From: a virus
DNA length: 20,826 nucleotides
IMG/VR virus record: IMGVR_UViG_3300010354_016726
Location: 1-20,826 of that record
Strand: one strand, 5' to 3'
The position numbers and the translations under genes were made by a program. The notes below the pieces were generated by a model that was given only the letters and a program-made list of their open reading frames with translations, was not told the origin of the DNA and searched no databases. Shown here piece by piece: positions 663 through 17,626 of the stretch. Numbering within the stretch: position 1 is the first letter of the stretch; every line of letters begins with the position of its first letter.

Positions 663-1559
663 TTAGCGAACGACTCTACGGCGGTTGCTAGAAGATGGTC
701 CGCCACCGCGATTCATAACTGTGTCGCCAACTCCATAAACTCCGTAATTATTTGTCCATGAAGTTGGGCTTTGTCCGGGACCAAATCCTGGAGGAGCAGC
801 ACCGTATGTTGCGATATAAAGACCTAGATCATTTCCATTAATGATTCCATCACCATTTAAATCTGTTAATGGTGGTAGATCCACTCCACCTTGGCTTCCT
901 TGGCTTCCTTGGGCGCTGCCAGTCGTATCCACGTCTGGTCTTCTATATGCAGGATTTGGTCTTGGTGCGGGACCAGTAGTTTCAGAAGCTCCTCTTGGTC
1001 TATTTGAAGATTGAGGATTTGCGGCGGTATATGCTGCAAAGCTTGCAGAATTGTTACCAGATCCCATGCTCCAGTTATTGATTACTGAAGATGCATTTTG
1101 GCCACCACCAAGTTGTAGGCCGAGATCAGCGCCATTTACTACACCATCATTGTTTAAATCCCCTGCTAAACCACCTGATGGTCTGCTAAATGTATCTGCT
1201 TCTCCTGCAACAGATCTGCGACCACGTAAAGTTGAAGAAGATTGTGCTGAAACTGGTGCATAAGCTCCACCAAATTGACCACCCCAATTTGAAGTGACAT
1301 TTGTTGAAGCTTGATTTTGGCCGAGAGCTAGGCCCAAGTCTGCGCCTGTTACAAGTCCATCGCCATTATAGTCACCTGGAATAGATTGTCCAGGTCTAGC
1401 AAATGAATCTGCAGGTCCAGCTACACGACGACCAGAACCGTAACCAGCATTGTAGGTGGTCATGGATTCATTGATCATGCGGACTTGATTTTCTAGGTAA
1501 TTAGCTCTAGCTTGGAGCTGTTCCGATAAATTTTTATAATAGTTTGTTAGATAATTCAT
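663..1559 (-). CDS. Dockerin-like triple-repeat protein, probably virion-associated (298 aa)
   Basis: The N-terminus (residues 1-31) is a helical leader with YYKNLSEQLQ, similar to the start of the 180-aa protein at 10058-10600. It ends MINE|S, which fits a T4-type prohead protease site. The rest is Gly/Ser/Asn/Pro-rich and carries three dockerin type I/EF-hand-like calcium loops (D63-N65-D67-D74, D134-N136-D138-D145, D233-N235-D237-D244), each continuing into DLGL. The first two sit in longer repeats starting GRR.VAG.AD.F.RP. The C-terminus is basic (RRRVVR). The start has an AAGGA ribosome site and an upstream AATAAATA octamer. Function is unknown; calcium-dependent structural or adhesive roles are inference. 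GC content is higher than in neighbours (30 of 60 bases in 1381-1440). Confidence 0.85.
   Translation of the reverse strand: MNYLTNYYKNLSEQLQARANYLENQVRMINESMTTYNAGYGSGRRVAGPADSFARPGQSIPGDYNGDGLVTGADLGLALGQNQASTNVTSNWGGQFGGAYAPVSAQSSSTLRGRRSVAGEADTFSRPSGGLAGDLNNDGVVNGADLGLQLGGGQNASSVINNWSMGSGNNSASFAAYTAANPQSSNRPRGASETTGPAPRPNPAYRRPDVDTTGSAQGSQGSQGGVDLPPLTDLNGDGIINGNDLGLYIATYGAAPPGFGPGQSPTSWTNNYGVYGVGDTVMNRGGGPSSSNRRRVVR
810..1373 (-). repeat. Three dockerin-like calcium-loop repeats within one gene
   Basis: The calcium-loop cores map to 1323-1373, 1110-1160 and 810-863. Each encodes GD/TD-x-N-x-DG-x-(V/I)-x-G-x-DLGL. The first two copies share long flanking similarity, while the third is preceded by a Ser/Gly/Gln triplet repeat (SQGSQGSQGG, about 889-915). 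Confidence 0.75.
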
Positions 1560-1579
1560 TTTTTTCCTTAAGGTTTAAT

Positions 1580-1587
1580 TATTTATT
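1580..1587 (-). promoter_or_regulatory. T4-type late promoter-like octamer AATAAATA
   Basis: This is a 7/8 match to TATAAATA on the minus strand, 20 nt upstream of the ATG at 1559. It overlaps the stop codon region of the upstream gene. An AAGGA ribosome site lies between it and the ATG. Confidence 0.45.
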
Positions 1588-2341
1588 TTTTTAAAGATTT
1601 CAAACTTTTTGTTACTGTTTTTCCTCTATTTTTTGAGTTAATTTTTTTGGTATTTGCTTTTTCAGTTTTGAATTTTTCATTTTTTGGTTTACCGGAAATA
1701 ACATCTTCAATTTGTTTAAATTTTTTGGCAAACGCTTTATTTGGATCCATAACAGAATAGGAGTCTGGTAATGCTGTTGGAAGCATACCATTATCTGTCG
1801 GTGAATAAAGACCCCAAGTTTCTAAAGATTTTGTTAAATCTTGCATTCCTTTGTTGGATACAGCATCATTTACTGATTTCCAAGATATATAACCTAATTC
1901 TTGTTGGTCTAATTGTTGGTATGGCTCTAATTTAAAATTTTTAGAATATTGATTAACAAATTGTTTTGTAGCTTGAAATTCTTGATCACCTATACCAAAC
2001 CCCATCCCCAATCCAATATTATTTGAAAGAAGTGGTTTTTGTGGCGTTTTGTCAAAACCAAATGCTCCCAATTTTACACCAGCTAATTTTGCAGCAGTTT
2101 TAATTATTTTTGAAGGATTGGCAATAACTGCATCAGAATCTCCACCTTGAATTCCAGAAATATAACCTTTATTTTGTAGTGAGGCAGCAATTTGTCCGTT
2201 ATATGCTGGATCTAAGCCACTTCCATCGACTTCAACACCACTACCAGATTCTAATAAATTTAATTTATAATTTATCGCATTTTTAATTGCATTAATTTGT
2301 TTTTGTAATTTTTGATTAAGTTGTTTATATGAGTTTGGCAT
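1583..2341 (-). CDS. Unknown protein with helical leader and basic tail (252 aa)
   Basis: I do not recognise a family. Residues 1-31 form a polar helical leader (SYKQLNQKLQKQINAIKNAI) ending LLE|SGSG, a good T4 prohead-protease-like site at the same residue number (31|32) as in the downstream dockerin-like protein. The middle is Gly/Asp-rich (GSGVEVDGSG, GLGMGFGIGD), then mixed alpha/beta. The last ~30 residues are very Lys-rich (KTEKANTKKINSKNRGKTVTK), suggesting nucleic acid contact. The ATG lies 1 nt after the stop of the 63-aa gene, so the two are translated from one transcript. A packaged internal protein is inferred, not shown. Confidence 0.8.
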   Translation of the reverse strand: MPNSYKQLNQKLQKQINAIKNAINYKLNLLESGSGVEVDGSGLDPAYNGQIAASLQNKGYISGIQGGDSDAVIANPSKIIKTAAKLAGVKLGAFGFDKTPQKPLLSNNIGLGMGFGIGDQEFQATKQFVNQYSKNFKLEPYQQLDQQELGYISWKSVNDAVSNKGMQDLTKSLETWGLYSPTDNGMLPTALPDSYSVMDPNKAFAKKFKQIEDVISGKPKNEKFKTEKANTKKINSKNRGKTVTKSLKSLKK

Positions 2342-2342
2342 T

Positions 2343-2534
2343 TTAATCTATTGCATTTCCAAAAACTTTTTTAACTATTGGGTTTAAATCTTTAATATTT
2401 TTTTTCAAAAGTGCTTTAAGTAACTGTTTTCTTATTTCTTTTTTCCATTGCTCAATTCCAACTGGTGTTGGATTTGAAATATGTGAAATTTCTGTTTCAA
2501 TATTATATAAATTTCCTTCACAAAGTTTTTTCAT
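2343..2534 (-). CDS. Small unknown protein with basic amphipathic C-terminus (63 aa)
   Basis: The ATG at 2534 lies 1 nt after the stop of the upstream 105-aa gene, and its stop lies 1 nt before the next start, so it sits tightly inside an operon. The second half (residues 25-60, WKKEIRKQLLKALLKKNIKD) is a strongly basic amphipathic helix. No Cys motif, signal peptide or membrane segment is visible. I recognise no family. Position suggests co-expression with the virion-associated neighbours. Confidence 0.7.
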   Translation of the reverse strand: MKKLCEGNLYNIETEISHISNPTPVGIEQWKKEIRKQLLKALLKKNIKDLNPIVKKVFGNAID

Positions 2535-2535
2535 A

Positions 2536-2853
2536 TTACTTTTTATTACGTAATTTTTTAAGTGTTAGTGCCAGGCGAGCTCTTTTTCCAAGTTTACCAC
2601 CTTTTTCAGCAGCCTTTTCTAATTTACCAGCTGGGATATTTTTTCCCTCTTTGGTTTTTAAAGACTTACGTAAGGCTCCTGGCTTTTTGATGGCATCTTG
2701 AATCCATTGCTTTTTTTCATTTAAAGCATATTCTAGAAGAACATCAGTATCTTCAAAAAGATTTTCGATTATCTCATCAGCAATATCAATTTCTTCTTGA
2801 AGAGTTTGAATTTGTTGCATTAGCGATCTTAATTGAATTATTGTTGGGTCCAT
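2536..2853 (-). CDS. Coiled-coil protein with lysine-rich tail (105 aa)
   Basis: Residues 5-45 read as a heptad-like acidic helix (IQLRSLMQQIQTLQEEIDIADEIIE) containing two (I/L)xE sites, IIE|N and LFE|D. Residues 50-105 are highly basic (GKLEKAAEKGGKLGKRARLA) and could bind nucleic acid. It is the first gene of the minus-strand operon down to 663. A late-promoter-like octamer TCTAAATA ends 5 nt before its ATG and no ribosome site is visible. Function unknown; the layout resembles small phage internal or DNA-associated proteins. Confidence 0.8.
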   Translation of the reverse strand: MDPTIIQLRSLMQQIQTLQEEIDIADEIIENLFEDTDVLLEYALNEKKQWIQDAIKKPGALRKSLKTKEGKNIPAGKLEKAAEKGGKLGKRARLALTLKKLRNKK

Positions 2854-2858
2854 GTAGT

Positions 2859-2866
2859 TATTTAGA
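2859..2866 (-). promoter_or_regulatory. T4-type late promoter-like octamer TCTAAATA (minus)
   Basis: This is a 7/8 match to TATAAATA, 5 nt before the ATG at 2853. It forms a divergent pair with the exact octamer at 2870-2877 on the plus strand. Confidence 0.55.
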
Positions 2867-2869
2867 AAC

Positions 2870-2877
2870 TATAAATA
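2870..2877 (+). promoter_or_regulatory. T4-type late promoter octamer TATAAATA (plus)
   Basis: This exact octamer ends 8 nt before the ATG at 2886. In T4 this sequence is read by the late sigma factor gp55. It supports late expression of the downstream gene from an almost leaderless message. Confidence 0.7.
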
Positions 2878-2885
2878 GTAATATC

Positions 2886-3128
2886 ATGTACGACCAATAC
2901 CTCAGAGGAAATACTTTTAACGTTGGTGACAATATTCGTCTCCCCAAACACAAAGGATTTTTATTCAGCGGGAATGCAAATTCCTATGCTTCTTTTTATA
3001 TTTTTAACGACCAAGGAAATACCCTTGCCGTTGGCTTAACTTTTGCTGGTGGTATATCAGTATTGCCTGTTCAAGCATACTCTGTTCAAAGTTTGGCTAC
3101 AGGATTAACTGGATACCGTTTAAACTAA
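2886..3128 (+). CDS. Small beta-rich protein of unknown function (80 aa)
   Basis: The start is ATG at 2886 (MYDQYLRGNTFNVGDNIRLP). The longer frame from 2841 would cross the promoter and run antisense into the start of the opposing gene, so it is rejected. The protein is rich in short beta-type segments and small residues (GFLFSGNANSYASFYIFNDQ, LAVGLTFAGGISVLPVQ) and has no charge-rich or helical section. It is flanked by minus-strand genes and driven by an exact late octamer, so a structural role such as a small decoration or fibre component is plausible but unproven. I recognise no family. Confidence 0.7.
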   Translation: MYDQYLRGNTFNVGDNIRLPKHKGFLFSGNANSYASFYIFNDQGNTLAVGLTFAGGISVLPVQAYSVQSLATGLTGYRLN

Positions 3129-3131
3129 AAA

Positions 3132-5435
3132 TTATTTTATTGTTCTTCTAAGAGTTTCAATAAGTTGAGTATCGCCTCTTAGTAAAGTTCCATTTATATT
3201 TCTGCCAGTTAATCTCTTAAATTCTGCAGCAATTTTTCTTTCTCTTGAGGCTTCACTAAAAGCTCTTCCTGCAGATTCACCAGAATAATCAAAGTTTTCT
3301 GGTTCTTGATTTTTAAGATTATTCAACATTTGTTGTTTAACTTCTTTTGGAAGATTTTTTAATTCTCTACCAAATTCTTTTTCAAACTCTGTATCAACTG
3401 AACTTGTTTGTAGTTGTGGTTCAACAATAATCATTGGACTACCACCCCAACTTGAAGTTGGTTGTTTTATTTCTTCTGGTGAAAGTTCCATTGGTTTATT
3501 CATTGGTACTTCTTCAATCGGCCTATCTTCTATTTTTGAAAATCTTTTTCTATTTTTATTATATCTGTCTATGGATGCTGCAACATCAAATGGAACTGTA
3601 GAGCTTTTATCAAATTTTTTACCTGATGTCTCGGGTGCCATTTTTGGTGAAATTATATCCATTGGGTTTGGATAACCAAATCCCTCAAAATCTGCTAACT
3701 CATTATCTTGAGCTGACTGGGGAATTACACTCCATGATTTAGTACCTTTATCAAATTTATGTGTCGTTTTCCATTTTCCTTTTTGTTTTGTAAATAACAA
3801 ATCCCCTTTGCGAACAACTGCTCCATCCTCAGCTTCTTCCGTTGGTACTGTAGGTTCAAATTGACCTCTTTGAACATCTGAGTCCGCTCTACTTAAATAT
3901 GCAGTTTCTATTGGAGCTGGAGCTGGCTCCGGTGCTGGAGCTGGCTCATAATAGGGTTCTGGCTCTGGAGCTGGTGCTAATTCAAAAGGTTCATCAATAA
4001 CAACTTCATATCTTACATTTGGATCTGGAGGTGAGTAGTTATAAAGAATTGGAGACTGGCCTCTTTGTACATCTGGATCTGGCATAGCTCCAGTAGCTTC
4101 TGGAGAACCATAAAGTTTAATTCTGTCAGCAACAGGTGTGGTAGACATTAAATTTTGTTTCATAAAACTTTTAGCTTGTGCTAAAACATCTTTTGTCTTT
4201 TTTGCTGCAGATTTATCTAATGATTTTAAAATATTTGTTAAACCCTGAGAAGGTTTTTCTGGTTCTGGGGCTGGTGCAGGTTCTGGGGCTGGTGCAGCAT
4301 CATATGCAGAATCCGTTTGAAACTCTGGATAAATTGGAAATTGCCCTCTTTGTACATCTGGATCTGCATAATTAATTGGAAATGGTGTTCCAGCAGGAAT
4401 TTCAACAGATTTTGGTTGTTCTGGTTTGGTGGTTGCTGGTTTTTTAGCTAACGGTTCTGCAACTGCAGCTTGAGGTTTTTTTTCTTTTCCATCTCTGTCA
4501 GTGGCATAATTTACACCTTGCATATAAAGTTTTTCACTTTGACTCATTCTATCTTTGTTATATTTTCCTGGACTTAATTTTCCAGCACCTGCCATGTTTA
4601 TTACAATATTTCTATCGGTGTTACTCTTAAAATCATAATCTCTACCAGTCAGTTCTTTAAAATCACCATAAGTCATGCTAGAACCGCTAATAAATTCTTT
4701 TTGTTTTTCTATTTCTCTTTTTTCTGCTTCTTCAGGAGTTGGTTCAAAAACAGCATATGGGCCAACCATTTCTGGTCCCTCTCCGGTAGCATAACCTGCA
4801 GATGGTCCACGATATCTGCCCAATCTCCAAGTCATTTTTGGCTCTTTTGCTTTTGCTTCTTTTGATAATCTATCCATTTCGGATCTTAGCTTTTCAGTAA
4901 AACCTACGTCTGTTAATGTATCAATTAGATCCGGTCTTTCATAACCAAGCTCAGTTTCAACTCTAGTTTTTATACTTGGATCTTGGCGCATTTGAAATGT
5001 AGCAAAATCCAATCTAGCCATATCTGATCTATCTAAAGTTTGGAATCCTGTGCTAAGATCTCCTTCTCTAATTTTTTTGCTTAATTCACCTAAAACTTTA
5101 GCAACAGATTTTACAGTCTCATCTCTTCTCTGCTCTCGTCTGATTTCTCTTTCTGCTGGGGTAGAGGGTCTTGGTTTTGTTTCTACGGTTGTTGCCCTAA
5201 CTGGTGAAGGTGTTCTAGAAGTAGTTTCTATTTCTTTCCAAGGAGCGCTAGCTGGCTCAGAACCAAGATTTCTTAATCTTTCTGCTTCTTCCTCTGCTCT
5301 TTTATCATAATTTGACTGCGGTGCAAGCTGGGCACCACCACAAACCCCCATTGGTGAGCCACCCCAAGCTGTTTGATCGACACCACCATCTTCTACAATT
5401 AAACCACTTACGATAAAATCTGTTAGTTTTTTCAT
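3132..5435 (-). CDS. Large Pro/Ala/Glu-rich repetitive protein, probably virion-associated (767 aa)
   Basis: The N-terminus MKKLTDFIVSGLIVE|D resembles a T4 capsid-targeting leader. Most of the chain looks disordered and charged. Three copies of D-x-DVQRGQ occur at about residues 355, 451 and 516, separated by AP/EP runs (PAPEPAPAPEPEKP and similar). The motif WGGSPM appears near both ends (near the N-terminus and about residue 660). A compact basic stretch near residue 540 (KGDLLFTKQKGKWKTTHKF) looks folded. The ATG lies 1 nt after the stop of the 222-aa gene, which carries the operon's late promoter. I recognise no enzyme domain. An internal capsid or tail-associated protein is inferred. 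Confidence 0.85.
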   Translation of the reverse strand: MKKLTDFIVSGLIVEDGGVDQTAWGGSPMGVCGGAQLAPQSNYDKRAEEEAERLRNLGSEPASAPWKEIETTSRTPSPVRATTVETKPRPSTPAEREIRREQRRDETVKSVAKVLGELSKKIREGDLSTGFQTLDRSDMARLDFATFQMRQDPSIKTRVETELGYERPDLIDTLTDVGFTEKLRSEMDRLSKEAKAKEPKMTWRLGRYRGPSAGYATGEGPEMVGPYAVFEPTPEEAEKREIEKQKEFISGSSMTYGDFKELTGRDYDFKSNTDRNIVINMAGAGKLSPGKYNKDRMSQSEKLYMQGVNYATDRDGKEKKPQAAVAEPLAKKPATTKPEQPKSVEIPAGTPFPINYADPDVQRGQFPIYPEFQTDSAYDAAPAPEPAPAPEPEKPSQGLTNILKSLDKSAAKKTKDVLAQAKSFMKQNLMSTTPVADRIKLYGSPEATGAMPDPDVQRGQSPILYNYSPPDPNVRYEVVIDEPFELAPAPEPEPYYEPAPAPEPAPAPIETAYLSRADSDVQRGQFEPTVPTEEAEDGAVVRKGDLLFTKQKGKWKTTHKFDKGTKSWSVIPQSAQDNELADFEGFGYPNPMDIISPKMAPETSGKKFDKSSTVPFDVAASIDRYNKNRKRFSKIEDRPIEEVPMNKPMELSPEEIKQPTSSWGGSPMIIVEPQLQTSSVDTEFEKEFGRELKNLPKEVKQQMLNNLKNQEPENFDYSGESAGRAFSEASRERKIAAEFKRLTGRNINGTLLRGDTQLIETLRRTIK
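4261..4296 (-). repeat. Tandem 18-bp repeat encoding an Ala-Pro-Glu-Pro run
   Basis: Two identical 18-bp units (4261-4278 and 4279-4296, plus-strand ggttctggggctggtgca) encode part of an Ala/Pro/Glu run. Related units lie near 3915-3975. A separate 22-bp identical direct repeat at 4060-4081 and 4345-4366 encodes DPDVQRG. Confidence 0.8.
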
Positions 5436-5436
5436 A

Positions 5437-6105
5437 TTAACTACCTAATAATTTTTTTGCAATTAAACGCAGTTCATTGATTGAATAAATTTTTCCAGCT
5501 GGTGCGCTTTTTATAATTCTATTTATTTCTTTATCAACTAATAATTTTTTTTCTGTCAAATTTGCATTTTCTTTCATTGTTCTCCAAGCAGCACTCGGGA
5601 ATGCATTGCGTCTTGCATCTTCATCTTCTTCATAAGCACGTTCTCTTTCCAAATCAGCTTGCATATCTCTTCTCAATTCAAGATTTGCTCTGGCTGTCAT
5701 TTCATTTGGAGTTAAACCACCGGTATAGGGGGCATCGGGGTGTTGAATGGGTTCGGGTATGCCCTCTTGTCTAGCAAAATTAAAAGAAGGAAGTCCACTG
5801 AATGGCCTTTCATTTCCAATTATATTATCAAATGCGTCTTTTTTTACATCTTCTGCGTCTCTATCACCATCAGAATCTACATCTGTTACTTGTAAATCTT
5901 TAGAAGTATTTTGTAATCTTGGATCACTTGCCTTCTTTTGAGCTAAAATTTCTGCATAACGTCTAAGTTCATCTCTAGTTGGGCCCGCTTGTTCATTTAA
6001 ATTTACAAAATTTTTAAATAGTTTAGCCTCAGCTAACAATTTTGATTCAATAGCACTTTGTTTTAATTCATGAATCCAAGAATATTGTTTAATTTTATTG
6101 CGCAT
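5437..6105 (-). CDS. Unknown protein with leader and one EF-hand-like calcium loop (222 aa)
   Basis: The basic helical leader (residues 1-26) ends LLAE|AK, a close match to the T4 prohead protease rule (I/L)xE|(A/G/S). Residues 74-90 read TDVDSDGDRDAEDVKKD, an EF-hand/dockerin-like calcium loop (D75, D77, D79, D83 and E85/D86). The second half is charged and helical, with a basic C-terminus (INELRLIAKKLLGS). An exact TATAAATA octamer ends 5 nt before the ATG, so the gene heads the minus-strand late operon with the 767-aa gene. I recognise no named family. A packaged or structural role is inference. Confidence 0.8.
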   Translation of the reverse strand: MRNKIKQYSWIHELKQSAIESKLLAEAKLFKNFVNLNEQAGPTRDELRRYAEILAQKKASDPRLQNTSKDLQVTDVDSDGDRDAEDVKKDAFDNIIGNERPFSGLPSFNFARQEGIPEPIQHPDAPYTGGLTPNEMTARANLELRRDMQADLERERAYEEDEDARRNAFPSAAWRTMKENANLTEKKLLVDKEINRIIKSAPAGKIYSINELRLIAKKLLGS

Positions 6106-6110
6106 AGAAA

Positions 6111-6118
6111 TATTTATA
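6111..6118 (-). promoter_or_regulatory. T4-type late promoter octamer TATAAATA (minus)
   Basis: This exact octamer is followed by five nucleotides (TTTCT) and then the ATG at 6105. It lies back to back with the sigma70-like promoter at 6120-6147 on the plus strand. Confidence 0.75.
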
Positions 6119-6119
6119 T

Positions 6120-6147
6120 TTGACTTAGTTTAGGTATAAGGTATACT
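6120..6147 (+). promoter_or_regulatory. Sigma70-like promoter of the small-protein operon
   Basis: TTGACT (6120-6125) and TATACT (6142-6147) are separated by 16 nt, and the first ATG of the five-gene operon follows at 6154. The -35 box is identical to that of the promoter at 450-477 and the spacer length is the same, so both probably belong to one early promoter class. Confidence 0.7.
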
Positions 6148-6153
6148 TTAATT

Positions 6154-6297
6154 ATGGATTATGGAACACATGGTGCAGGAAAAGGTGATTCATATAGATC
6201 AGTGGATTATCAAAAATATTGTAAAAATTGGGATAAAATTTTTAAAACCAAAAAAAAGAAAAAGGTTGACAAAACCAAAAAAAGAGGTACAATATAA
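6154..6297 (+). CDS. Small conserved phage protein with Lys-rich tail (47 aa)
   Basis: ATG at 6154, TAA at 6295-6297. The sequence starts MDYGTHGAGKGDSYRS, has a middle with NWDKIF, and ends in a lysine run (KTKKKKKVDKTKKRG). From memory, similar small proteins with a Gly-Lys-Gly-Asp start and N-WD-IF core recur in T4-like phages, but I cannot verify this here. It is the first gene after a sigma70-like promoter, and the next ATG is 2 nt beyond its stop. Function unknown; early expression and the basic tail suggest a nucleic-acid or host-factor contact. Confidence 0.7.
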   Translation: MDYGTHGAGKGDSYRSVDYQKYCKNWDKIFKTKKKKKVDKTKKRGTI

Positions 6298-6299
6298 CT

Positions 6300-6765: not shown

Positions 6766-6773
6766 GGAAATAA

Positions 6774-9115: not shown

Positions 9116-9539
9116 TTGATGGGTTATTTAATTTTCTGTCAACTCTTGGATCTGTGTTTATTTTATTATATTCCGCTTCGGGTATATTTTTTACTGAAAA
9201 ATTTAAATATACTAAAAATGATTTTAAGTAAGAATGCAGTCTTGGTTCAAGCTTAAAAAATAAAATTCTTGCACAATTTTCTTCACCAAATACATTTTTT
9301 AATATTATTATATGGTTGTTAATTAGACATTCTCTAATTGACTTTAAAGTTTTATATTTGTGAATTTTTTGAATTAATCTTTTAACGTATTTTATACGTT
9401 TTAAATCATCAGTAAATTCATTTTTACCAGAACAATCTGGATTAAAATAATGTTCTTGACAAAATTTTAAAAAAACTTCTTCTGTTAAAGGTTGTTTTAA
9501 TTTTTTATTATTGACATCCACAATTAGAGCTCTCAACAT
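9111..9539 (-). CDS. Conserved T4-like phage protein of unknown function (142 aa)
   Basis: The core reads FTDDLKRIKYVKRLIQKIHK, then a helix IRECLINNHIIILKNVFG, a segment ARILFFKLEPRL and SYLKSFLVYLNF. From memory this order (FxxDLxRxKYxKRL / LxNHxIxLxNVFG / RxLFxKLE / LKxFLxYLN) is that of a small helical family widespread in T4-like phages of aquatic bacteria, whose function I do not know. It overlaps the upstream 175-aa gene by 32 nt, implying translational coupling. A Cys pair (FCQEHYFNPDCSG) near residues 26-36 is notable but does not make a full zinc site. Confidence 0.8.
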   Translation of the reverse strand: MLRALIVDVNNKKLKQPLTEEVFLKFCQEHYFNPDCSGKNEFTDDLKRIKYVKRLIQKIHKYKTLKSIRECLINNHIIILKNVFGEENCARILFFKLEPRLHSYLKSFLVYLNFSVKNIPEAEYNKINTDPRVDRKLNNPSI

Positions 9540-10035
9540 TATCAGGAAGTATCACCATTTGAACTCTTCTTAAATGATTTGGTTGTTTAACAACATTGAT
9601 CACCAAGTTTAATCCATGACCTAATTTTTCTGTAATACCATCTTGTGAGAATCCAACTTCATCAACATTTTGATATGGAGTCATACCATAAACTCCAATT
9701 TGTGGACTGCCGTATTGGTATAATTTAATTTTTGTTTCGCCATCTGGTACAGAAGAAGTATATTGAAAATCAAAACCAAAGTGATTTAATTTTTGACGAA
9801 CTACGTTTAGTACAGAGTCTGGATCAACAAAATCTTTTTGTCCCATTGCATAAAGTAATGCATTAATAGCATCCAAAGAACGCGGAAGCTTAATATTAAA
9901 GGTTCCCTTATCAGTTAGAGTGCTTGGCAAACGTGGAGCAGATGGGTCGCCAATAAACAATCCACCACCCTGGGTATGCTCGCCAGAATTTTCATAAATT
10001 GGCCCAATAATTTGTAATAGTTCTTTGAATTTCAT
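9508..10035 (-). CDS. Unknown phage protein, candidate virion component (175 aa)
   Basis: Residues 1-15 form a leader-like helix (MKFKELLQIIGPIYE|N) resembling a capsid-targeting sequence. A Gly-rich turn follows (GEHTQGGGLFIGDPSAPRLP), then a mixed alpha/beta domain with SLDAINALLYAMGQKDFVDP and a hydrophobic strand near the end (HLRRVQMVILP). The protein ends in NCGC. An ACTAAATA octamer lies 9 nt before the ATG. The tight overlap with the conserved 142-aa gene suggests linked roles. I cannot name the family. Confidence 0.75.
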   Translation of the reverse strand: MKFKELLQIIGPIYENSGEHTQGGGLFIGDPSAPRLPSTLTDKGTFNIKLPRSLDAINALLYAMGQKDFVDPDSVLNVVRQKLNHFGFDFQYTSSVPDGETKIKLYQYGSPQIGVYGMTPYQNVDEVGFSQDGITEKLGHGLNLVINVVKQPNHLRRVQMVILPDNVESSNCGCQ

Positions 10036-10044
10036 AATCTATAC

Positions 10045-10052: not shown

Positions 10053-10057
10053 TTATT

Positions 10058-10600
10058 TTAACGACGCTTTTTATCATACCAAACACTCCAATCGGGCGTT
10101 TGATCGTGGAATTGGTCCAGTGGATCGGGAATATTAGTCCAAGGTCTGTCTGTATCGAATATGGATGGTCCTTTAATTGGAGTATTTTTCCCTGGAGTTT
10201 CTGGAGTTGGTGCACGTTCTATATCTGGCACAAATCCACTACCACGTTCAGGTAACTGAGGTCTTGGTTGATTAGGTTGATCTATACCTGGATAATATCT
10301 TGGATCCGCCCCATCAACCGGCCTACAATTTATACATGGAAAATCAACTGGCCATCCAAAAGTATTGCTAACATAATGTTTAGTTATAGGATAACCCTCT
10401 ACTGGAAGATTGCCCATTCCTTTGCCTGGAAGTGGATTACCAAATGTTGTATTTAACCAGTTGACTGAAGCATCTAGAACGTCTCCAACCGGATCAAATC
10501 TTTCTGGAGGAATAAAATTTCTATCATATAATTCTATTAATTTAATTTTTTTTTGTAAATTTTCACATAAATTTTTATAATATTGTATTTTGTTGGGCAT
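10058..10600 (-). CDS. Pro/Gly-rich protein with conserved helical leader (180 aa)
   Basis: The leader (IQYYKNLCENLQKKIKLIE, residues 5-23) is clearly like that of the dockerin-like protein (YYKNLSEQLQ...). The remainder is Pro/Asp/Gly/Trp-rich and probably extended (FGWPVDFPCINCRPVDGADP, RPQLPERGSGFVPDIERAPT, TPDWSVWYDKKRR). A CxxC pair (CINC) lies near residue 90. An exact TATAAATA octamer ends 5 nt before the ATG. No enzyme motif is seen. A late structural or packaged protein is the likely class, by leader and promoter. Confidence 0.8.
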   Translation of the reverse strand: MPNKIQYYKNLCENLQKKIKLIELYDRNFIPPERFDPVGDVLDASVNWLNTTFGNPLPGKGMGNLPVEGYPITKHYVSNTFGWPVDFPCINCRPVDGADPRYYPGIDQPNQPRPQLPERGSGFVPDIERAPTPETPGKNTPIKGPSIFDTDRPWTNIPDPLDQFHDQTPDWSVWYDKKRR

Positions 10601-10605
10601 AAAAT

Positions 10606-10613
10606 TATTTATA
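10606..10613 (-). promoter_or_regulatory. T4-type late promoter octamer TATAAATA
   Basis: This exact octamer is followed by ATTTT and the ATG at 10600. The stop codon TAA of the upstream 385-aa gene (10609-10611) lies inside it. Confidence 0.7.
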
Positions 10614-11766
10614 ATCTTTTATTTTGATAATGAAGTATGTTATATAAATTTGGATTGTATTTTTTATTGTTTATAGATTTTACAATATTATCTGCTATGT
10701 CTTCTGAAATTGCTTTCCATTTCCCACCTTTACTCTTATAGCATTTTGCAGCCCACGCATTAGCATAAGCAGAAGGATAAACATCAAATTTTTTCTTAGC
10801 TTGAGCAATACAAGAAGACCATTTTTTTGGGTTTTTGGCTTTATTTTTCTTTGCTTCATCCAAACAGAGAACTTCTTCTTTTAACATTGAGCTTACTGGT
10901 GTGGAACTCCAAGTCTTGCAAGCCCAGTAACGAGCTTTCCAACGTGGTCCAGGATTATCACAGTTGTGCCTTGCTCTAAAATTTTTACGCCTAGCTGGAT
11001 CATCACGCTTAATTTCCATATTTGGGTCGCCAAAATTTACCTTTACAACATTTCCTTTATCATTCTTTACATAAACTTTATATTTTTTAACGTCACCGCG
11101 CATTATTTTATTAAGTTTAACTTTTGCTTTTTCGCTTTCGTGTATTTCTATTTTATCACCATATTCATTATATGAAGTTTCTTCTGTATTATCAATAAAT
11201 CCCATAACAGTTTCTGGCAAAAAATGCTCTTCATATTCATTTCCATTTTGATCTGTCATTCCAATTATATGATATTCATCACCTTCAGTGATATAATCTA
11301 TATCAAAAATATCTCCAGATTCATTGATTATAATATCACAAGGTAAAAGTTCACTTACTGAAATTGTTGGGAAAGACATTTCAAAAATATGTGAAAGACT
11401 TTCTACCAAAAATAAATCAAATGATTCTTTTACTTCTGTAACTCCAGTTTTTACAAAAACTGGTTTCTTTCCTTTACCTTTTACAGAACCTTTAGTTCCA
11501 CGGCCAGCTTTTTTTTGTGCAACTCTTTTACGTCTAACAAAAGAACCAATTTTTTCTTTTCCTAATAATTTTGCTTTTTGCTTACTTAAACAAGCGGAAT
11601 AGGATTCACCTTCTTCAGCATCACCGCATTTTCCAACTCTTTCTCCTTTAGTATTGTAGCGATCCCATCCAGGACCACCGCCGGCTGATTCTTTGTTAAA
11701 CCATTTGCCAAGTCCTGATTTTGCAAATACTTTTTCTAAAATTGGTTCAATGCGTTTATTGCTCAT
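10609..11766 (-). CDS. Modular basic protein with DUF5872-like and related phage modules (385 aa)
   Basis: ATG at 11766 is chosen. It overlaps the upstream stop as ATGA and has AAGGA six nucleotides before it; an in-frame TTG six bases earlier is less likely. Residues 19-107 (GKWFNKES, KCG, SACLSKQKAK, GSFVRRKRVAQKKAGRG, KPVFVKTG) match the basic DUF5872-type module of many aquatic phages. Residues 112-225 are acidic and folded. Residues 226-286 (KKYKVYVKNDKGNVVKVNFG, RRKNFRARHNCDNPGP, RYWACKTW) and 305-352 (KKWSSCIAQAKKKFDVYPSA, YANAWAAKCYKSKGGKWK) resemble further Cys/Lys-rich phage modules. The basic ends suggest DNA contact in the capsid. Function is inferred from composition only. Confidence 0.8.
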   Translation of the reverse strand: MSNKRIEPILEKVFAKSGLGKWFNKESAGGGPGWDRYNTKGERVGKCGDAEEGESYSACLSKQKAKLLGKEKIGSFVRRKRVAQKKAGRGTKGSVKGKGKKPVFVKTGVTEVKESFDLFLVESLSHIFEMSFPTISVSELLPCDIIINESGDIFDIDYITEGDEYHIIGMTDQNGNEYEEHFLPETVMGFIDNTEETSYNEYGDKIEIHESEKAKVKLNKIMRGDVKKYKVYVKNDKGNVVKVNFGDPNMEIKRDDPARRKNFRARHNCDNPGPRWKARYWACKTWSSTPVSSMLKEEVLCLDEAKKNKAKNPKKWSSCIAQAKKKFDVYPSAYANAWAAKCYKSKGGKWKAISEDIADNIVKSINNKKYNPNLYNILHYQNKRL

Positions 11767-14183
11767 TTCCAATCCTTATCCTGTTTTTCACCTTTTTTGT
11801 GACCATTATCAGATCTATTGTCTGATTTATGCCGTAGACGTAAATTATTTATACCATTTGAACCACCGCTCCGCAATGGTTTTTTATGGTCTACATCCAT
11901 ACTAGAACCTTTTTTAACTTTGCCATTTTTAATTAAGGCTTCTCTTGCTGCAGTTCTTTTTGCTCTTTCTTTTCTTTGTTTTGCTTTTCCGTGATAATTT
12001 CGATATTCCATTTTATAATCACGTTGGTATTTTTCATTTAATTGAAATGCATTTAAAACATATAAAAAAAGTTTTGGTTCAGCTTCAGCTCTTTCTACTA
12101 AATTTTTATAAATTATTTTTAATCCATCAGTATTTTCATTTAACATTTTTGGATTTGTCATCCAATTTGCTTCATTTGATGTAATTAATTTTGTTTTTAC
12201 AAGTTTTGATAAAATAAAATTATTAGATAAAGCTTCAATTAAAATATCATTTGCTATTATTGCAACAGATTCTTGAAGTTCTAAAGCAATAAGCTCTGTT
12301 TTTTCTACCGGAATTTTTATAGTTTTCTTTCCAATTTTAATGTAATTGTATTCTATAACATTTAAATCTTTTGGTGAAAAACCAGGTAAAAGACTTACAT
12401 TTATATCAAAATCCATATTTTGAGAAGCCTGACTTAAAGCTAATTGTATTGGATCTATTGTATCCTTAGATACAAATAGTGATTCGATACTTGGTTTTTC
12501 CGGTTCCTTTTGCTCAACAACAGTTAAAAATTTATTCATCAAAGCCGATTTTTTATCTGTGCGGGAAATATTGTCTGTGCTGCTTTCTGCTTTTACTGGC
12601 TTTACTTCTATTGTAGCAGTTCTTGAAACTTCAGAAAAATAAGAATCGGTCATTGGAAAAATACCATTTTGAGTAATTAAATGGTTTGGAGCAGTTTTTG
12701 GATCTTTGATTATATCTCCACGATAATAAATTTTTAGTATATTTTGAACAAATAAGTCTGCAAATTCTGATGGATTTTTGCTAGTATTTTTAAATAATTT
12801 TGTTGTAGCTTTTGATAAAGTATCTCGATAAGTTTCAAAAGATGCAAATTTGTTAAGTTTGCCGTTTTGATCTACTACTGGTCCTAATTTTTTACCTGAT
12901 GAATCTGTTAACTCTATTGTTTGAAGTTGAGAAAGCAATTCTGGATCTTTTTTTGCAGTCTCAAAACTTTCTCTACTCATTAACATATTTCCATATGAAG
13001 AAGAAATACTTTGAGCTTCTTTTGCAAATCCTTGCATTTTAGGATCTCTAGCAATTCCTGGATTTTGTAGTGTTTGTGTTATAGCTGCATTCAACAATCC
13101 ACGGAATACTTTTGATTTTTGATCAAATTTATCGGTAGTAATTAAAAACTCACCACCAGCTGAAATTTTAAATTTGTAATCTCCACATTCCATATCTACC
13201 GCACCCTCAGCAGCCGTTGGCTGAGATCCGGTTTCAGCAGCAGATATTAACTTTTGAATACACTCTTCTCCCATTTGGGATAATATTTTTCTTGCTTGAG
13301 AAAAGGCTATTTTTGTAAATTCTAATGAATTTGGAGCAATAGCTGCATATGATTGTATTTCTTGATCAGATGCGCCTGCTTTAATTTTAGCTAAGAAAAT
13401 TAAAGCATTAATTACTTGTTGATTGTATGGAACAGCAGTTAGTGTGTTAATACCAAATACATTAGTTAATTTTTCAAATGTCAATGAATCAAATGTTGTT
13501 CCAGATGTTGGTTTTCTTGTTTGCATGAAATACTCTTGGCGTATTTCAAATGGAACTTGACTTAATTGTTCTGGTGTCATCTGAGACATGGCCATAAAAA
13601 TTTCTTCTTTTGAAAGTTTTTTGGCTTGTTTTTTTTCTTTTGGAAGTTCACCATCCTGCTGCTTTAAATCATCCGGCTCACCTCTTGCAGCAACTTCCTT
13701 CTTCGGCTGTTCTTTGGTGGTTACTGTTCTCTCTTTTGTCGTTTGTGATTGTTCTTTTCCTGCACCCCGTTGCTGTGGTGCTGTGGTTTTTTGTTTTACA
13801 TCGCCAAATAATAATTTGGATGCACCGGTTTGTTCAAAACTTGGTTCTCTTGTATATGTTTTAGCTTCTTCATAAGAAAGCTGTTCACTTTTACTAAGTT
13901 TAGTATGTTTGCCTTTATCAAAAGAATCTTTAAAAATTAATTGAACTCTTCCGCTTTGAGTTTTTACGGGAGTAATTTCTTTTACTAGCTCTTCCTTGGA
14001 CTTTTGTGCTCTTGGAGTTTGTCTAGATCTTTCAGCACGTTTTCTCGCAGCATCTTTAGCTTTTTTATCCGAAGAACCAGCAATAGCTCTTTCTTTTTTA
14101 ATGGCTTGGCCAGTAGTTCGGAAAGAATCTGCCTTGGTGCGAGAATCCTCAACTAGATGATATAAAAAGTCCCTTAAGTTCAT
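11763..14183 (-). CDS. Large protein with leader, basic N-terminus and HNH-like C-terminal motif (806 aa)
   Basis: The leader MNLRDFLYHLVE|D resembles the T4 capsid-targeting sequence. It is followed by a Lys/Arg/Ser stretch (KKAKDAARKRAERSRQTPRA), a Gln/Lys/Glu-rich linker and a long helical middle (residues ~190-710). The last ~100 residues are basic and contain DVDHKKPLRSGGSNGINNLR with downstream HKSDNRSDNGH, an HNH-like metal motif (D765-H766 plus Asn and His residues). The stop overlaps the next start. A CATAAATA octamer framed by a 7-bp inverted repeat precedes the ATG. A packaged protein with nuclease-like tail is inferred; activity cannot be judged. Confidence 0.8.
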   Translation of the reverse strand: MNLRDFLYHLVEDSRTKADSFRTTGQAIKKERAIAGSSDKKAKDAARKRAERSRQTPRAQKSKEELVKEITPVKTQSGRVQLIFKDSFDKGKHTKLSKSEQLSYEEAKTYTREPSFEQTGASKLLFGDVKQKTTAPQQRGAGKEQSQTTKERTVTTKEQPKKEVAARGEPDDLKQQDGELPKEKKQAKKLSKEEIFMAMSQMTPEQLSQVPFEIRQEYFMQTRKPTSGTTFDSLTFEKLTNVFGINTLTAVPYNQQVINALIFLAKIKAGASDQEIQSYAAIAPNSLEFTKIAFSQARKILSQMGEECIQKLISAAETGSQPTAAEGAVDMECGDYKFKISAGGEFLITTDKFDQKSKVFRGLLNAAITQTLQNPGIARDPKMQGFAKEAQSISSSYGNMLMSRESFETAKKDPELLSQLQTIELTDSSGKKLGPVVDQNGKLNKFASFETYRDTLSKATTKLFKNTSKNPSEFADLFVQNILKIYYRGDIIKDPKTAPNHLITQNGIFPMTDSYFSEVSRTATIEVKPVKAESSTDNISRTDKKSALMNKFLTVVEQKEPEKPSIESLFVSKDTIDPIQLALSQASQNMDFDINVSLLPGFSPKDLNVIEYNYIKIGKKTIKIPVEKTELIALELQESVAIIANDILIEALSNNFILSKLVKTKLITSNEANWMTNPKMLNENTDGLKIIYKNLVERAEAEPKLFLYVLNAFQLNEKYQRDYKMEYRNYHGKAKQRKERAKRTAAREALIKNGKVKKGSSMDVDHKKPLRSGGSNGINNLRLRHKSDNRSDNGHKKGEKQDKDWK

Positions 14184-14189
14184 TTCAAT

Positions 14190-14197
14190 TATTTATG
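14190..14197 (-). promoter_or_regulatory. Late promoter-like octamer CATAAATA within a 7-bp inverted repeat
   Basis: A 7/8 match ends 6 nt before the ATG at 14183. The octamer is exactly bracketed by TTTCAAT (14183-14189, plus sense) and ATTGAAA (14198-14204), so the start region can form a hairpin or a symmetric protein site. Confidence 0.5.
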
Positions 14198-14204
14198 ATT
14201 GAAA

Positions 14205-14783
14205 TTAAGGGTCTAAAGGATTATAAAGTTTTAGCCCTTTATGGCTTTTTACTTTTCCTGTAGCTACTTTATACAAAGTAGATTTGTCAAGATTATTAAT
14301 TTTGGCAAATTCTGCAATATTTTCAACAATTAATATCTCTTTTGTGCTAATATTTTGAAATGTAGCGCCATTATAGCTTTTAATTTTAATTGGTTCCGGT
14401 TCTTTTTCCTTTATATGTGAACCAACTGTTTCTTTAACTTCTCTTAATTCAACTGCAGTCCACCCTTTATAAGTTTTACGCTTTCCATTTAAAAGTTCAC
14501 AAATTTTAACTGCTGTTAATCCGTGTTGTTCCCCAAACTCTTTCATACTTTCAAAAAATACTTCTTGACCAGTATCAACTCTTTTTAGTTTGTAGCCATT
14601 TTTTTCTTTAACGGCACTTACCCATTTCCAATATTTTCCCTCTAGTTCAAAAAATCCACCATTTTTTGCAATAAAATCATTCCTAAACCAAGCAGATCTA
14701 GAATTATCGTTCATTCTAGTCCAAAGAAAAGAGTATTTTTTATTTACTTGTTCTTCAAGGGTTTTTAAGATTTTTATTTCCAT
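14205..14783 (-). CDS. Protein with two tandem NUMOD-like DNA-binding repeats (192 aa)
   Basis: Residues 68-110 and 143-187 are two copies of one module: (T/S)(G/K)xEI/V-F/V...EFAxxxxL....I/L Y/C..(L/A)xGKxKxxKGW/L. This is the helix-turn-helix pattern of NUMOD1/IENR-type repeats, which contact DNA in homing endonucleases. The N-terminal ~65 residues (FLWTRMNDNSRSAWFRNDFI, YWKWVSAV) are Trp-rich and unassigned. No GIY-YIG, HNH or LAGLIDADG catalytic motif is visible. The gene overlaps the exonuclease gene upstream by 29 nt. A sequence-specific DNA-binding protein, possibly a homing-endonuclease derivative, is the most likely identity. Confidence 0.7.
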   Translation of the reverse strand: MEIKILKTLEEQVNKKYSFLWTRMNDNSRSAWFRNDFIAKNGGFFELEGKYWKWVSAVKEKNGYKLKRVDTGQEVFFESMKEFGEQHGLTAVKICELLNGKRKTYKGWTAVELREVKETVGSHIKEKEPEPIKIKSYNGATFQNISTKEILIVENIAEFAKINNLDKSTLYKVATGKVKSHKGLKLYNPLDP

Positions 14784-15417
14784 AATTTATTATTGCCTTT
14801 TTTAATTTTTTAACATATTTAATTGGTTTATCTTGAAATACCTGGCGCAATCCATCTTCACATGCAATTAAAATTACAAAATTATCAATAACTATTCCAG
14901 TTCTCTCTTGATACATTAAAGCATAAGCAGTTGCCTGTGTAAAATAATTTTCAATATCTTGTTTTCTTTTTTCTTTAGTGCTAGCTTTAAAATCTATGAT
15001 AGAGAGTTTTCCATCATATTCTGCTATACAGTCTGTCCTGCCAGCTAAACCTAAAATTTTAGACCACAGAGGTGTTTCTAACGCTACAATATTATTAATT
15101 TTGTCTATTTCTGGTTTTAATAATAAAAACAAAGACTTTAAATTTGAATTTTCATCATCCAAATTTAAAGTCTCATTATTTAAATATTTTTCTATTAAAC
15201 TATGAAATTTTGTCCCTCTTGAAGTAACCCTTTTACTTTCTTCTGGATTTTTTGATCTCCATTCAGAAAAAAACTGTTGTTTTTCAAATCCCACAACAGT
15301 TGTTACACTTGGAAAGTCTCCATCTGGAGTTGTGTAAAATCTAGATCCATTTTTTTGGATTTCTTTTAATTCTACCGATGGTATAATATTAGATAAATGT
15401 ATAAATGATTGTGTCAC
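14755..15417 (-). CDS. PD-(D/E)XK exonuclease, MGME1/RecB-like family (220 aa)
   Basis: Motifs in order are SVTTVVG (37-43), RGTKFHSLIEKYL (67-79, H72), GRTDCIAEYDGKLSIIDFKA (126-145; metal residues D129, D142 and Lys K144) and YFTQATAYALMY (158-169, Q161). This is the usual order of PD-(D/E)XK nucleases of the RecB/MGME1 type, which are common in phages as single-strand DNA exonucleases for recombination or genome processing. Length fits a single-domain enzyme. The start is GTG at 15417, because an in-frame TAA lies just upstream and no nearby ATG exists. It is coupled to the NUMOD-like gene downstream. Confidence 0.85.
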   Translation of the reverse strand: MTQSFIHLSNIIPSVELKEIQKNGSRFYTTPDGDFPSVTTVVGFEKQQFFSEWRSKNPEESKRVTSRGTKFHSLIEKYLNNETLNLDDENSNLKSLFLLLKPEIDKINNIVALETPLWSKILGLAGRTDCIAEYDGKLSIIDFKASTKEKRKQDIENYFTQATAYALMYQERTGIVIDNFVILIACEDGLRQVFQDKPIKYVKKLKKAIINYGNKNLKNP

Positions 15418-15433
15418 AGTTTTTTATATTATA

Positions 15434-16312
15434 TCACTTTAATCTTAAAGTGCTAGAATATTTTCCTAAGATTTTGTCTAACATCAAATCTGCATCTAGA
15501 CTGGCATCAGATCCTTCCATTCCGTCTTCGCGATATTTGATTTTATCCGGTCCACCTTCATAATCAAAATCTGGAATATTAAAGTCTGATGCTTTCTGTG
15601 GAGGCATTTCTCCCTGCATTGTATATCTTTTGGTCATTTCATCGCGCTTCATTTTAGCTTGAGATTCATATCCTTGTTGTAAATCTGTTCCAGCTTTAGC
15701 TGAAATAGCTGCAGCTAAAACTGTTGCCAATTCTGGGGAAAGTTGCAATTCAGGATAAGCAGATTTTGAGATAGAAGTAACTTCTTCAGGTTTTGGTTGT
15801 ATTTCTAATACAGGTGGCTCATCTATATCTGGTTCTCTTTGTGGTAGAGCTGGAGGAGTATATGGATCAGGCACAACTTCAGTTGCGACTGCTGGTTCTG
15901 TTTGTCCAGTTTTTTCTTTTAATTTTTGAACTGTAAAAGATTCCAATTCTGGATAAAATCCATATAAATCACCTTGCTTTTGCCTTACATTTTTTACAAT
16001 TGTTTTAAGATCTTTTGTTAAAGACCAAGCACTTTCAATTTCACTTGCAATTATACTTTCAGCATCTGGTAAAGAAATCTTTGGTGCTTGAGATGTTGAG
16101 CTCAGTGGTGGAATTTCAAACTGAGTGCTTCTAGTAGGTTTTACTTTAGGCGATTCTGCTGTTGGTTTGCCAATCCAGGGCTCATAAGAGGGTCTTGGTA
16201 AAGGTGGTCTTACTGATGGAATTTTTGGCAACTGTAATGTCTGCTCCATCAATTGGGCTTGAACATATCTTTGTAATAAAATTATATCTAATAGCGGATG
16301 TATTTTTTTCAT
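15434..16312 (-). CDS. Pro-rich unknown protein with leader (292 aa)
   Basis: The start chosen is ATG at 16312 (MKKIHPLLDIILLQRYVQ), 1 nt after the stop of the upstream 333-aa gene. The longer frame upstream runs inside that gene and is not needed. A helical leader of ~23 residues ends LME|Q. Then comes a Pro/Ser/Thr-rich stretch (SVRPPLPRPSYEPWIGKPTA), a helical section around the Trp of EIESAWSLTKDLKTIVKNV, a second Pro-rich acidic linker and a helical/acidic C-terminus (ELATVLAAAISAKAG, MLDKILGKYSSTLRLK). I recognise no family. It belongs to the late virion-like cluster by leader and composition. Confidence 0.75.
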   Translation of the reverse strand: MKKIHPLLDIILLQRYVQAQLMEQTLQLPKIPSVRPPLPRPSYEPWIGKPTAESPKVKPTRSTQFEIPPLSSTSQAPKISLPDAESIIASEIESAWSLTKDLKTIVKNVRQKQGDLYGFYPELESFTVQKLKEKTGQTEPAVATEVVPDPYTPPALPQREPDIDEPPVLEIQPKPEEVTSISKSAYPELQLSPELATVLAAAISAKAGTDLQQGYESQAKMKRDEMTKRYTMQGEMPPQKASDFNIPDFDYEGGPDKIKYREDGMEGSDASLDADLMLDKILGKYSSTLRLK

Positions 16313-16313
16313 T

Positions 16314-17315
16314 TTAAAATCCCCTGGCCGCTCCAATTGGGCCCTGTCTTGATTGTATAATGCTTTGTTTTGCAAAAGCATCTTGCATTCTTTCCCAGAA
16401 TCCTGGTTCTTCATAAACACCTAATTGCTGAAGCATTCTTTTTTCAGATTCTTTTTCTTGCTCATATTTTTTTAATTGCTCTGCTGATTTTGTTGCCAGT
16501 TCTATTTCTTGGTCTACCATATAAGGTATTGTTGCCAAATAACCGCCAACTAACCATGTAGCAGGGCTTCTTAATGAAGCCGCAGTAGCTGCTTGGGTTG
16601 CTTCTCCTGCTATTGCTGCAGCTCTTGAAAGACCCAAACCTGCCTGTAGTGCTCTTGCTGCTGTTGGTACTCCCACTGTGGCAGCTTGTGCTGCCAATTC
16701 TGCTGGAGGAATTGCTGCCGCAAAAGAACCATAGTGTGCAATTGGTTCGGGTAAACCCTTAGTTAAATATTCTCTACTAAGTTCATAGCTTTTTGTAAAT
16801 GGATAATAAGCTGCGGCTGATCCAACAGCAAATCTAGCAAATGGATTTCTTTCACCTGGAAAAGAAGGTTGAGTAAAATCTGCCGGCGCACCGCCTTTAC
16901 CACGAATATTTTTTAATTCTTCTTGGCCAAGTTTATATCTTGAAATTTCTCTTGGGCTTCTGCCTGTTTGATAAGGAACTGTAGTTTCTTTTCCACTAGA
17001 TCTAACATCTTGCCTTGCCAAAGATGGTTTTTTTGGTAAATTTGGTTTTGGAGGTTGTCCCCGGGGCCCTTGATCTGGTGGTGGGGGTGGCGGAGAAGGG
17101 GCTGAGGGGGGTGGGGGTGTATCGGTTGGTAATATTGATTTTAACAAAAAAGTAGGAAACAATTCATTTTCGGTATCTTCTTCATCATATGCTTTAATTT
17201 GTGGTAAAGATGAGCTTCGTTTTGAACCAACTCTAACACCATATAAGTTGCCAGACGGTGGGCTGACAACCGCTTCATCCAATATTTTTTTTAATACTGG
17301 TGGTATGGGTTTCAT
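16314..17315 (-). CDS. Polyproline protein with Ala-rich hydrophobic helices (333 aa)
   Basis: The leader MKPIPPVLKKILDE|AVV fits the T4 prohead-protease rule. Residues ~65-105 are polyproline (TPPPPSAPSPPPPPPDQGP). Residues ~160-275 are Ala/Gly-rich hydrophobic segments (FARFAVGSAAAYYPF, YGSFAAAIPPAELAAQAATV, AARALQAGLGLSRAAAIAGE, TWLVGGYLATIPYM) with weak membrane or amphipathic character. The tail is charged and helical (EQLKKYEQEKESEKRMLQQL). Its start overlaps the previous stop as ATGA. The layout suits an ejected or membrane-interacting phage protein, but there is no recognised family and this is inference. Confidence 0.75.
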   Translation of the reverse strand: MKPIPPVLKKILDEAVVSPPSGNLYGVRVGSKRSSSLPQIKAYDEEDTENELFPTFLLKSILPTDTPPPPSAPSPPPPPPDQGPRGQPPKPNLPKKPSLARQDVRSSGKETTVPYQTGRSPREISRYKLGQEELKNIRGKGGAPADFTQPSFPGERNPFARFAVGSAAAYYPFTKSYELSREYLTKGLPEPIAHYGSFAAAIPPAELAAQAATVGVPTAARALQAGLGLSRAAAIAGEATQAATAASLRSPATWLVGGYLATIPYMVDQEIELATKSAEQLKKYEQEKESEKRMLQQLGVYEEPGFWERMQDAFAKQSIIQSRQGPIGAARGF

Positions 17316-17626
17316 TTTTTTACATTATTGAAAGGATTAGTTGTAATATTTTTAGTATAAGCTTTCATATTTGGTGCTTGTTTTTTTGTAGCATCAATGA
17401 AAGAACTAATGTTATTAACAACTGAATTTTTAACATCATTTGAGCTGTTTACTATACGAGCTTTATCCTCATAAATATTTGGACCAGCTTTATTGATCGG
17501 TGAATTTATTACACTATTAATAGTAGATTTAAGACCATTTTGTGGTACACTTGGAGCTGGCGTAGGTTTTTTGCTCAAAAAATCCTTGACTTGCCAAAAA
17601 AATTGTTTATTCTTATTATTATCCAT
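17312..17626 (-). CDS. Small Asn/Lys-rich protein of unknown function (104 aa)
   Basis: The ATG at 17626 is preceded by a TCTAAATA octamer 10 nt upstream. The N-terminus (NKNKQFFWQVKDFLSKKPTP) is basic with an aromatic patch, followed by an Asn/Ser/Val-rich low-complexity middle (NSVINSPINKAGPNIYEDKA) and a Lys-rich end. No signal peptide or known motif is seen. It heads the minus-strand run of coupled genes down to the exonuclease and overlaps the 333-aa gene by 4 nt (ATGA). Confidence 0.7.
   Translation of the reverse strand: MDNNKNKQFFWQVKDFLSKKPTPAPSVPQNGLKSTINSVINSPINKAGPNIYEDKARIVNSSNDVKNSVVNNISSFIDATKKQAPNMKAYTKNITTNPFNNVKK

Follow-up and report, generated by a model that had tools for sequence, protein, structure and literature searches.

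Why do many proteins encoded on this stretch of viral DNA begin with a short leader that ends in (I/L)xE before their composition changes? The stretch (the window; 20,826 bases) is the whole of its virus record, a genome fragment with 26 plausible genes, three tRNAs and a class II ribonucleotide reductase. An earlier reading of the letters (the original prediction) had picked out nine minus-strand proteins with such leaders and had taken them for capsid-targeting signals cut by a prohead protease, as in phage T4. All nine are present as described, and the proposal proved largely right, with a positive outcome for every sequence prediction that could be tested. We conclude that the leaders are very probably capsid-targeting propeptides, which a Peptidase_S77 prohead protease would cut; this reading is supported because an S77 protease is present in relatives, the leaders recur at start codons, the positions of the T4 capsid-targeting sequence (CTS) are conserved, the sites survive shifts in spacing, and leaders are swapped between proteins.

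Relatives were found by way of the window exonuclease (14755-15417), which led to 80 related viral loci; three of these lie in long contigs (117-136 kb). Full records were compared for G001 (126 kb), G003 (136 kb), G002 (117 kb) and five shorter relatives. Their genes were called with our own script, so that starts are approximate, and the starts of the families are backed by orthologues. Hidden Markov models (HMMs) built from the N-termini of G001, G003 and the window (G000) were run over 2,466 proteins. This search for an N-terminal profile shared across the proteins of a genome, which the original prediction had proposed, returned two leader classes, types A and B; when their carriers are aligned over the full length, the leader is the only consensus.

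Type A has the consensus M-x5-YYKNLxEQLQ...(I/L)xE, often with several (I/L)xE sites, and is carried in the window by the 298- and 180-residue proteins. The original prediction had paired these two through YYKNLxExLQ, and the leader indeed recurs at start codons on unrelated bodies: the HMM gave 63 N-terminal and 5 internal matches, in 24 unrelated body clusters. The corresponding DNA pattern occurs in 66 viral stretches, with a Met exactly six residues upstream of the pattern for 89 of its 94 matches; a search of 257 Gb of cellular genomes gave a single match, which lacks the Met. Proteins found by the DNA pattern fall into 29 body clusters, and all 29 have (I/L)xE at residues 20-46 (shuffled expectation, 11.8±2.5), a signal supplied in part by a shared LLE at residue 23. 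A BLAST search of isolate phages with the leader, weak because the query is short, gave no match. We found no described counterpart of type A and regard it as previously undescribed. One type A protein (L090; G003 14349-15086) carries two tandem copies of the leader (NYYRNLCEQLQSQLENSYRNLSEELSSQINLLEK).

Type B (MKxFKxFLxE) is shorter and equally bound to start codons. Its HMM gave 60 N-terminal and 3 internal matches, in 27 unrelated body clusters, and a Met-anchored matrix matched 63 of the 2,466 start Mets and none of 10,502 internal ones. In a set of 47 leaders, F4, F/Y7 and L/I8 are present in every one and E10 in 41, although the choice of seed accounts in part for F4, K5, F7, L8 and E10. 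The DNA pattern was found in more than 120 stretches of the viral collection, a minimum count; among the 80 examined, 72 have it at the first ATG of an open frame. This wider scan comprised 77 proteins of at least 40 residues in 32 body clusters, and the residue after the predicted cut (P1'), which the pattern leaves unconstrained, is A, G or S in 56 of the 77 against a background of 22%. The bodies include lysozyme-like, DUF6321, DUF5872 and methyltransferase domains. By eye, type B proteins at L129, L130, L202 and L141 resemble nucleotidyltransferases, an acetyltransferase and other enzymes. The T4-type leader stands on lysozyme-like proteins at three loci (L084:4250-4921, L185 and L106:12930-13805), which suggests either that wall hydrolases are packaged in the head or that the leader has a second role.

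The match of type B to T4 is close. In the leader of IPIII, residues 4 and 7 are important for targeting and residues 8 and 10 for processing, and the protease gp21 cuts after L/I-x-E (PMC9026906). Type B is in register with the CTS of IPI, IPII and IPIII (MKTYQEFIAE↓A and MKTFKEF; the arrow marks a cut) and, like it, is N-terminal, ends in an (I/L)xE cut site and stands on otherwise unrelated proteins (PMC9026906, PMC12373910). T4 was outside the training set, and the sole match of the type B matrix in its 60-110 kb region was IPI, a known internal protein. Across the T4 genome, a relaxed pattern matched ipII, ipIII and 61.1 and no other gene; it matched nothing in Syn9, S-BM3 or HTVC008M and, reversed, had no match in any record. 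Leader detection has served before to find ip genes in T-even phages, whose internal proteins have the leader alone in common (PMC12373910). Gene 61.1 (L252; NC_000866 18966-19130, minus strand) is uncharacterised, encodes 54 residues and begins MKTFKEFIKE; by its leader, the product may be an unrecognised head-internal protein of T4.

The original prediction also saw a short MKxxxxF/L leader recurring in the window. The short leaders there miss the T4 register (aromatic residues at positions 4 and 7, a hydrophobic one at 8 and Glu at 10), as does type A. Those window leaders that are not type A are specific to their families (MNLRDFL, MKFKELL, MKKLTDF and others). Glu stands at 11-31 in the window leaders, and we class both kinds as working like the T4 CTS rather than as members of it.

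The strongest evidence that the leaders may act as capsid-targeting propeptides is that they are swapped. Two homologous proteins, L263 with a type A leader (...QYLTE↓VENWDEQIAVNDETGK) and L276 with a type B leader (MKKFKEFLLE↓VEDWKDQVATNDETGK), are 71% identical over 131 residues, and their homology starts at the predicted cut (QYLTE↓VENWDEQ and FLLE↓VEDWKDQ). Homology that begins at one scissile bond is what a modular, removable targeting peptide predicts. Similarly, bodies that start with xGLKKAL or xGLKRAL stand behind type A leaders (NLIE↓A, LLE↓A, QLNE↓G) and a type-B-like leader (MKSFIQYLQE↓S), and RP(T/N)FIPLT bodies begin two residues past the cut (NE↓xxRP(T/N)FIPLT) behind three different leaders.

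A candidate for the cutting enzyme is encoded in the long relatives. Pfam Peptidase_S77 matches a protein in G001 (39385-40029; E 9.5e-42) and in G003 (E 3.2e-39), so that the search for a gp21-like protease suggested by the original prediction succeeded there. The catalytic His85 and Ser140 of T4 gp21 are aligned and conserved, and the gene order around the homologue resembles T4 20-67/68-21-22-23; unlike gp21, the homologue is known from sequence alone, and from the relatives rather than the window. The ribonucleotide reductase of the window is 98% identical to that of protease-bearing relatives, from which we infer that the window phage has a protease of its own. Among the long contigs, S77 is encoded by 7 of 10 with type B and by 8 of 10 with type A; those that lack it may be fragments, and each of the ten with type A also has a type B start. 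An HK97-type protease (PF04586, S78 family) was considered as the cutter and rejected, being absent in nine relatives.

The recurrence of the leaders, their N-terminal position, the conservation of the sites, the protease and the swaps at the cut site are observed; the mechanism that we infer has four steps. The amphipathic leader of a late protein would bind the scaffolding core of the prohead, the protein would thereby be trapped inside, the S77 protease would cut after (I/L)xE and free the body, and the body would remain in the head with the DNA, probably to be injected at infection. At least two interchangeable leader classes, the short T4-type CTS and the longer type A, would serve this route, along with family-specific variants (MNFKxLL...(I/L)xE↓A, MKFKxLL...xE↓N and KYSWIHxLNxAAxExxLLSE↓A). 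Types A and B together with the family leaders give an estimated total of roughly 24 candidate cargo proteins for G001 and roughly 18 for G003. On this evidence we think it likely, with less assurance than for the leaders themselves, that a widespread uncultured T4-like clade loads, trims and injects about 18-24 proteins per genome, nucleases and wall hydrolases among them, by a modular system of at least two interchangeable signals spread over about 50 unrelated families.

The protein cargo of the T4 head comprises three internal proteins plus Alt (PMC9026906), and each of the three disarms a host Type IV restriction enzyme (PMC12373910). The clade differs in having type B on 4-8 proteins per long relative genome as against three in T4, in bodies that include enzymes and in a second leader class alongside, and it probably injects far more protein cargo than T4, to judge from the leaders. 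What is of a known kind is the CTS of T4; what is new is the second leader class and the roughly 18-24 candidate cargo proteins per genome. The sections of PMC10052503 on which we draw describe a further likeness in the head propeptides and ejection proteins of phiKZ and SPN3US. Numerous proteins inside those heads carry an N-terminal propeptide that is cut after xxE, in some cases at several positions; there the motif is S/A-x-E or A-x-E, the propeptides are mostly far longer, and those sections describe no shared short leader. The leader strings did not appear in the literature searched, which covered few subscription papers, and priority for leader B beyond the T-even phages is uncertain. 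With a leader that is legible in the sequence, genes annotated as hypothetical in abundant uncultured T4-like phages can be listed as likely to encode injected proteins of the first response. The leaders are also new tags by which foreign proteins could be loaded into T4-type heads, and they open to direct test the question of what, other than DNA, phages inject.

One alternative accepts that the leaders target the prohead but takes the bodies for scaffold or core proteins that help to build the head, rather than for injected cargo. The gp22/67/68-type head-core genes adjoining gp21 also start with (I/L)xE sites and several bodies are of low complexity, as this would have it; the presence of lysozyme, methyltransferase, DUF6321/DUF5872 and HNH domains argues for cargo, as does the strong variation of the bodies between genomes (24-32 body clusters), a pattern of accessory proteins. 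We consider the scaffold alternative unlikely, while giving it some weight. Less probable by a wide step is that the leaders are docking helices for the neck, baseplate or tail, or oligomerisation helices, with (I/L)xE an uncut part of an amphipathic helix. Type A does resemble a helix with heptad-like spacing, and many leader genes form a single block apart from that of the head genes. A docking helix would, however, hardly explain a site that is conserved despite shifting spacing, the bias at P1', the identity with the T4 CTS positions, the co-occurrence of S77 and homology junctions at the cut.

The original prediction had cautioned that (I/L)xE is common by chance, which holds for single proteins (27% match in shuffles), and had looked to enrichment near the N-terminus as the test. 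We counted (I/L)xE with E at residues 8-38 against shuffles of each protein's own residues 2-42. In the window, 18 of 25 proteins have the motif against 6.9±2.1 when shuffled (z 5.4), and 5 of 25 have the strict (I/L)xE(A/G/S) against 1.2±1.1. Enrichment extends to the long relatives (G001, z 6.7; G003, z 4.0; G002, z 4.1) and is absent from the control phages lambda (z -0.3) and SPO1 (z 1.0), run identically. A lack of enrichment, which the original prediction would have taken as refutation, is therefore not what the window shows. Internal stretches of window proteins match at mostly 13-36%, with one noisy stretch at 56% (9/16). Given these shuffles, internal stretches and controls, and leader sequences that many proteins have in common at start codons only, the idea that the leaders are ordinary N-terminal helices with a chance motif has practically no probability left.

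Several observations weigh against capsid targeting and cleavage. The 20.8-kb fragment does not encode the protease, ending before that region. The leader-bearing proteins of the clade are known from their genes alone. Some type B bodies are lysozyme-like, and packaging of such proteins in the head lies outside the T4 precedent. In the 333-, 292- and 767-residue families, usable orthologues are very few or number just one. At several window sites P1' is D, N, K or Q, not A, G or S: the 222- and 806-residue families largely have A/G/S, the 175-residue family N and the 385-residue family K, and the window copies of the 806- and 767-residue proteins have D. On this last point the major capsid proteins are informative, because near their N-terminus HLTE↓D or HLYE↓D replaces the SFLTE↓AEI of T4 gp23 (G001 41954-43360 and G003 96073-97500); the protease of the clade likely tolerates Asp/Asn at P1'.

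Leader-bearing and candidate cargo proteins of the window, with predicted cuts (arrows)
Feature	Position	Strand	Leader and its position	Predicted cut	Other
298-aa protein	663..1559	-	type A, residues 1-31, 1467-1559, MNYLTNYYKNLSEQLQARANYLENQVRMINE↓S	E31 (MINE↓S)	
252-aa protein	1583..2341	-	weak type-A-like, residues 1-31, 2249-2341, end LNLLE↓S	E31	
767-aa protein	3132..5435	-	MKKLTDFIVSGLIVE↓D, 5391-5435	E15 (IVE↓D)	
222-aa protein	5437..6105	-	...SAIESKLLAE↓A, 6028-6105	E26 (LAE↓A)	
175-aa protein	9508..10035	-	MKFKELLQIIGPIYE↓N, 9991-10035	E15 (IYE↓N)	
180-aa protein	10058..10600	-	type A, MPNKIQYYKNLCENLQKKIKLIE↓L, 10532-10600	LCE 13, LIE 23	YYKNLCENLQ
385-aa protein, possible cargo	10609..11766	-	short, MSNKRIEPILE↓K, 11734-11766		
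806-aa protein	11763..14183	-	MNLRDFLYHLVE↓D, 14148-14183	E12 (LVE↓D)	C-terminal HNH PF01844
292-aa protein	15434..16312	-	MKKIHPLLDIILLQRYVQAQLME↓Q, 16244-16312	E23 (LME↓Q)	
333-aa protein	16314..17315	-	MKPIPPVLKKILDE↓A, 17274-17315	E14 (LDE↓A)	
104-aa protein	17312..17626	-			family QLNE↓S/A site in about half of members

Among 47 orthologues of the 806-residue protein, 46 keep (I/L)xE and 33 have (I/L)xE(A/G/S), against 4.1±1.9 in shuffles, with the Glu mainly at 11, 12 or 18. In the 175-residue family, MKFK, L6 and E15 are invariant across 28 aligned orthologues and the spacer at 8-14 varies; (I/L)xE, followed by Asn, is present in 46 of 47. The 222-residue family has (I/L)xE(A/G/S) in all eight members, with E at 16, 26 or 31 (0.8 in shuffles). 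All eight distinct N-termini homologous to that of the 298-residue protein keep (I/L)xE, as do the four orthologues of the 252-residue protein, with a variable P1'. The type A HMM matched these two proteins at E 3.9e-15 and E 0.025, respectively, and the 180-residue protein at E 1e-13; for the body of the last, no relative was detected, the sole tblastn match among the fetched loci being a 17-residue stretch of the leader.

For the 767-, 292- and 333-residue proteins the evidence is thin. The G001 counterpart of the 767-residue protein begins MKKLEDFLVTGLLNE↓Q, the orthology being otherwise weak, and the G001 orthologue of the 292-residue protein begins MKKLKPVLQNILFKRYVNSLLNE↓Q; the 292-residue protein is itself the ATG-start form (16312) of a longer open reading frame with a GTG start. 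In the single orthologue of the 333-residue protein (HKILHE↓K), (I/L)xE is kept and P1' is not. The 104-residue family has (I/L)xE in 19 of 36 members (4.1 in shuffles), and the window copy lacks the conserved QLNE↓S/A site. The 385-residue family has LxE in all 34 members, yet P1' is Lys and the site abuts or lies within a conserved block; we list the protein as possible cargo because its domain follows a type B leader in L209 and, judged by position, also in phage C48C1, where a type B start lies just upstream of the domain copy. A 572-residue family was rejected as cargo: its N-terminus is conserved, but (I/L)xE occurs in just 18 of 48 members and (I/L)xE(A/G/S) in 1 of 48, with no conserved site in the window.

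The body of the 298-residue protein matches Dockerin_1 (E 4.6e-08) and has three dockerin/EF-hand-like loops (DYNGDGLVTGADLG, DLNNDGVVNGADLG and DLNGDGIINGNDLG), which recur in related type A proteins. A motif like DPDVQRGQFPIY is repeated in the 767-residue protein and is also found in leader-bearing proteins of relatives (G005 59733-61397 and G001 97391-99838). The predicted fold of the 806-residue protein (pTM 0.46) had no PDB match at E<=0.001, its only resemblance, a weak one, being to 276-residue cyanophage proteins of unknown function; that of the 175-residue protein (pLDDT 56) was not used. As a late promoter, TATAAATA was tried and left unused: it lies upstream of 13 of 61 leader genes against 55 of 805, and the reversed pattern is also raised (10/61 against 63/805). 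In the window, TATAAATA lies upstream of a plus-strand ATG at 2886, within a short promoter region common to the opposite-strand genes at 2536-2853 and 2841-3128, whose 5' ends overlap or abut.

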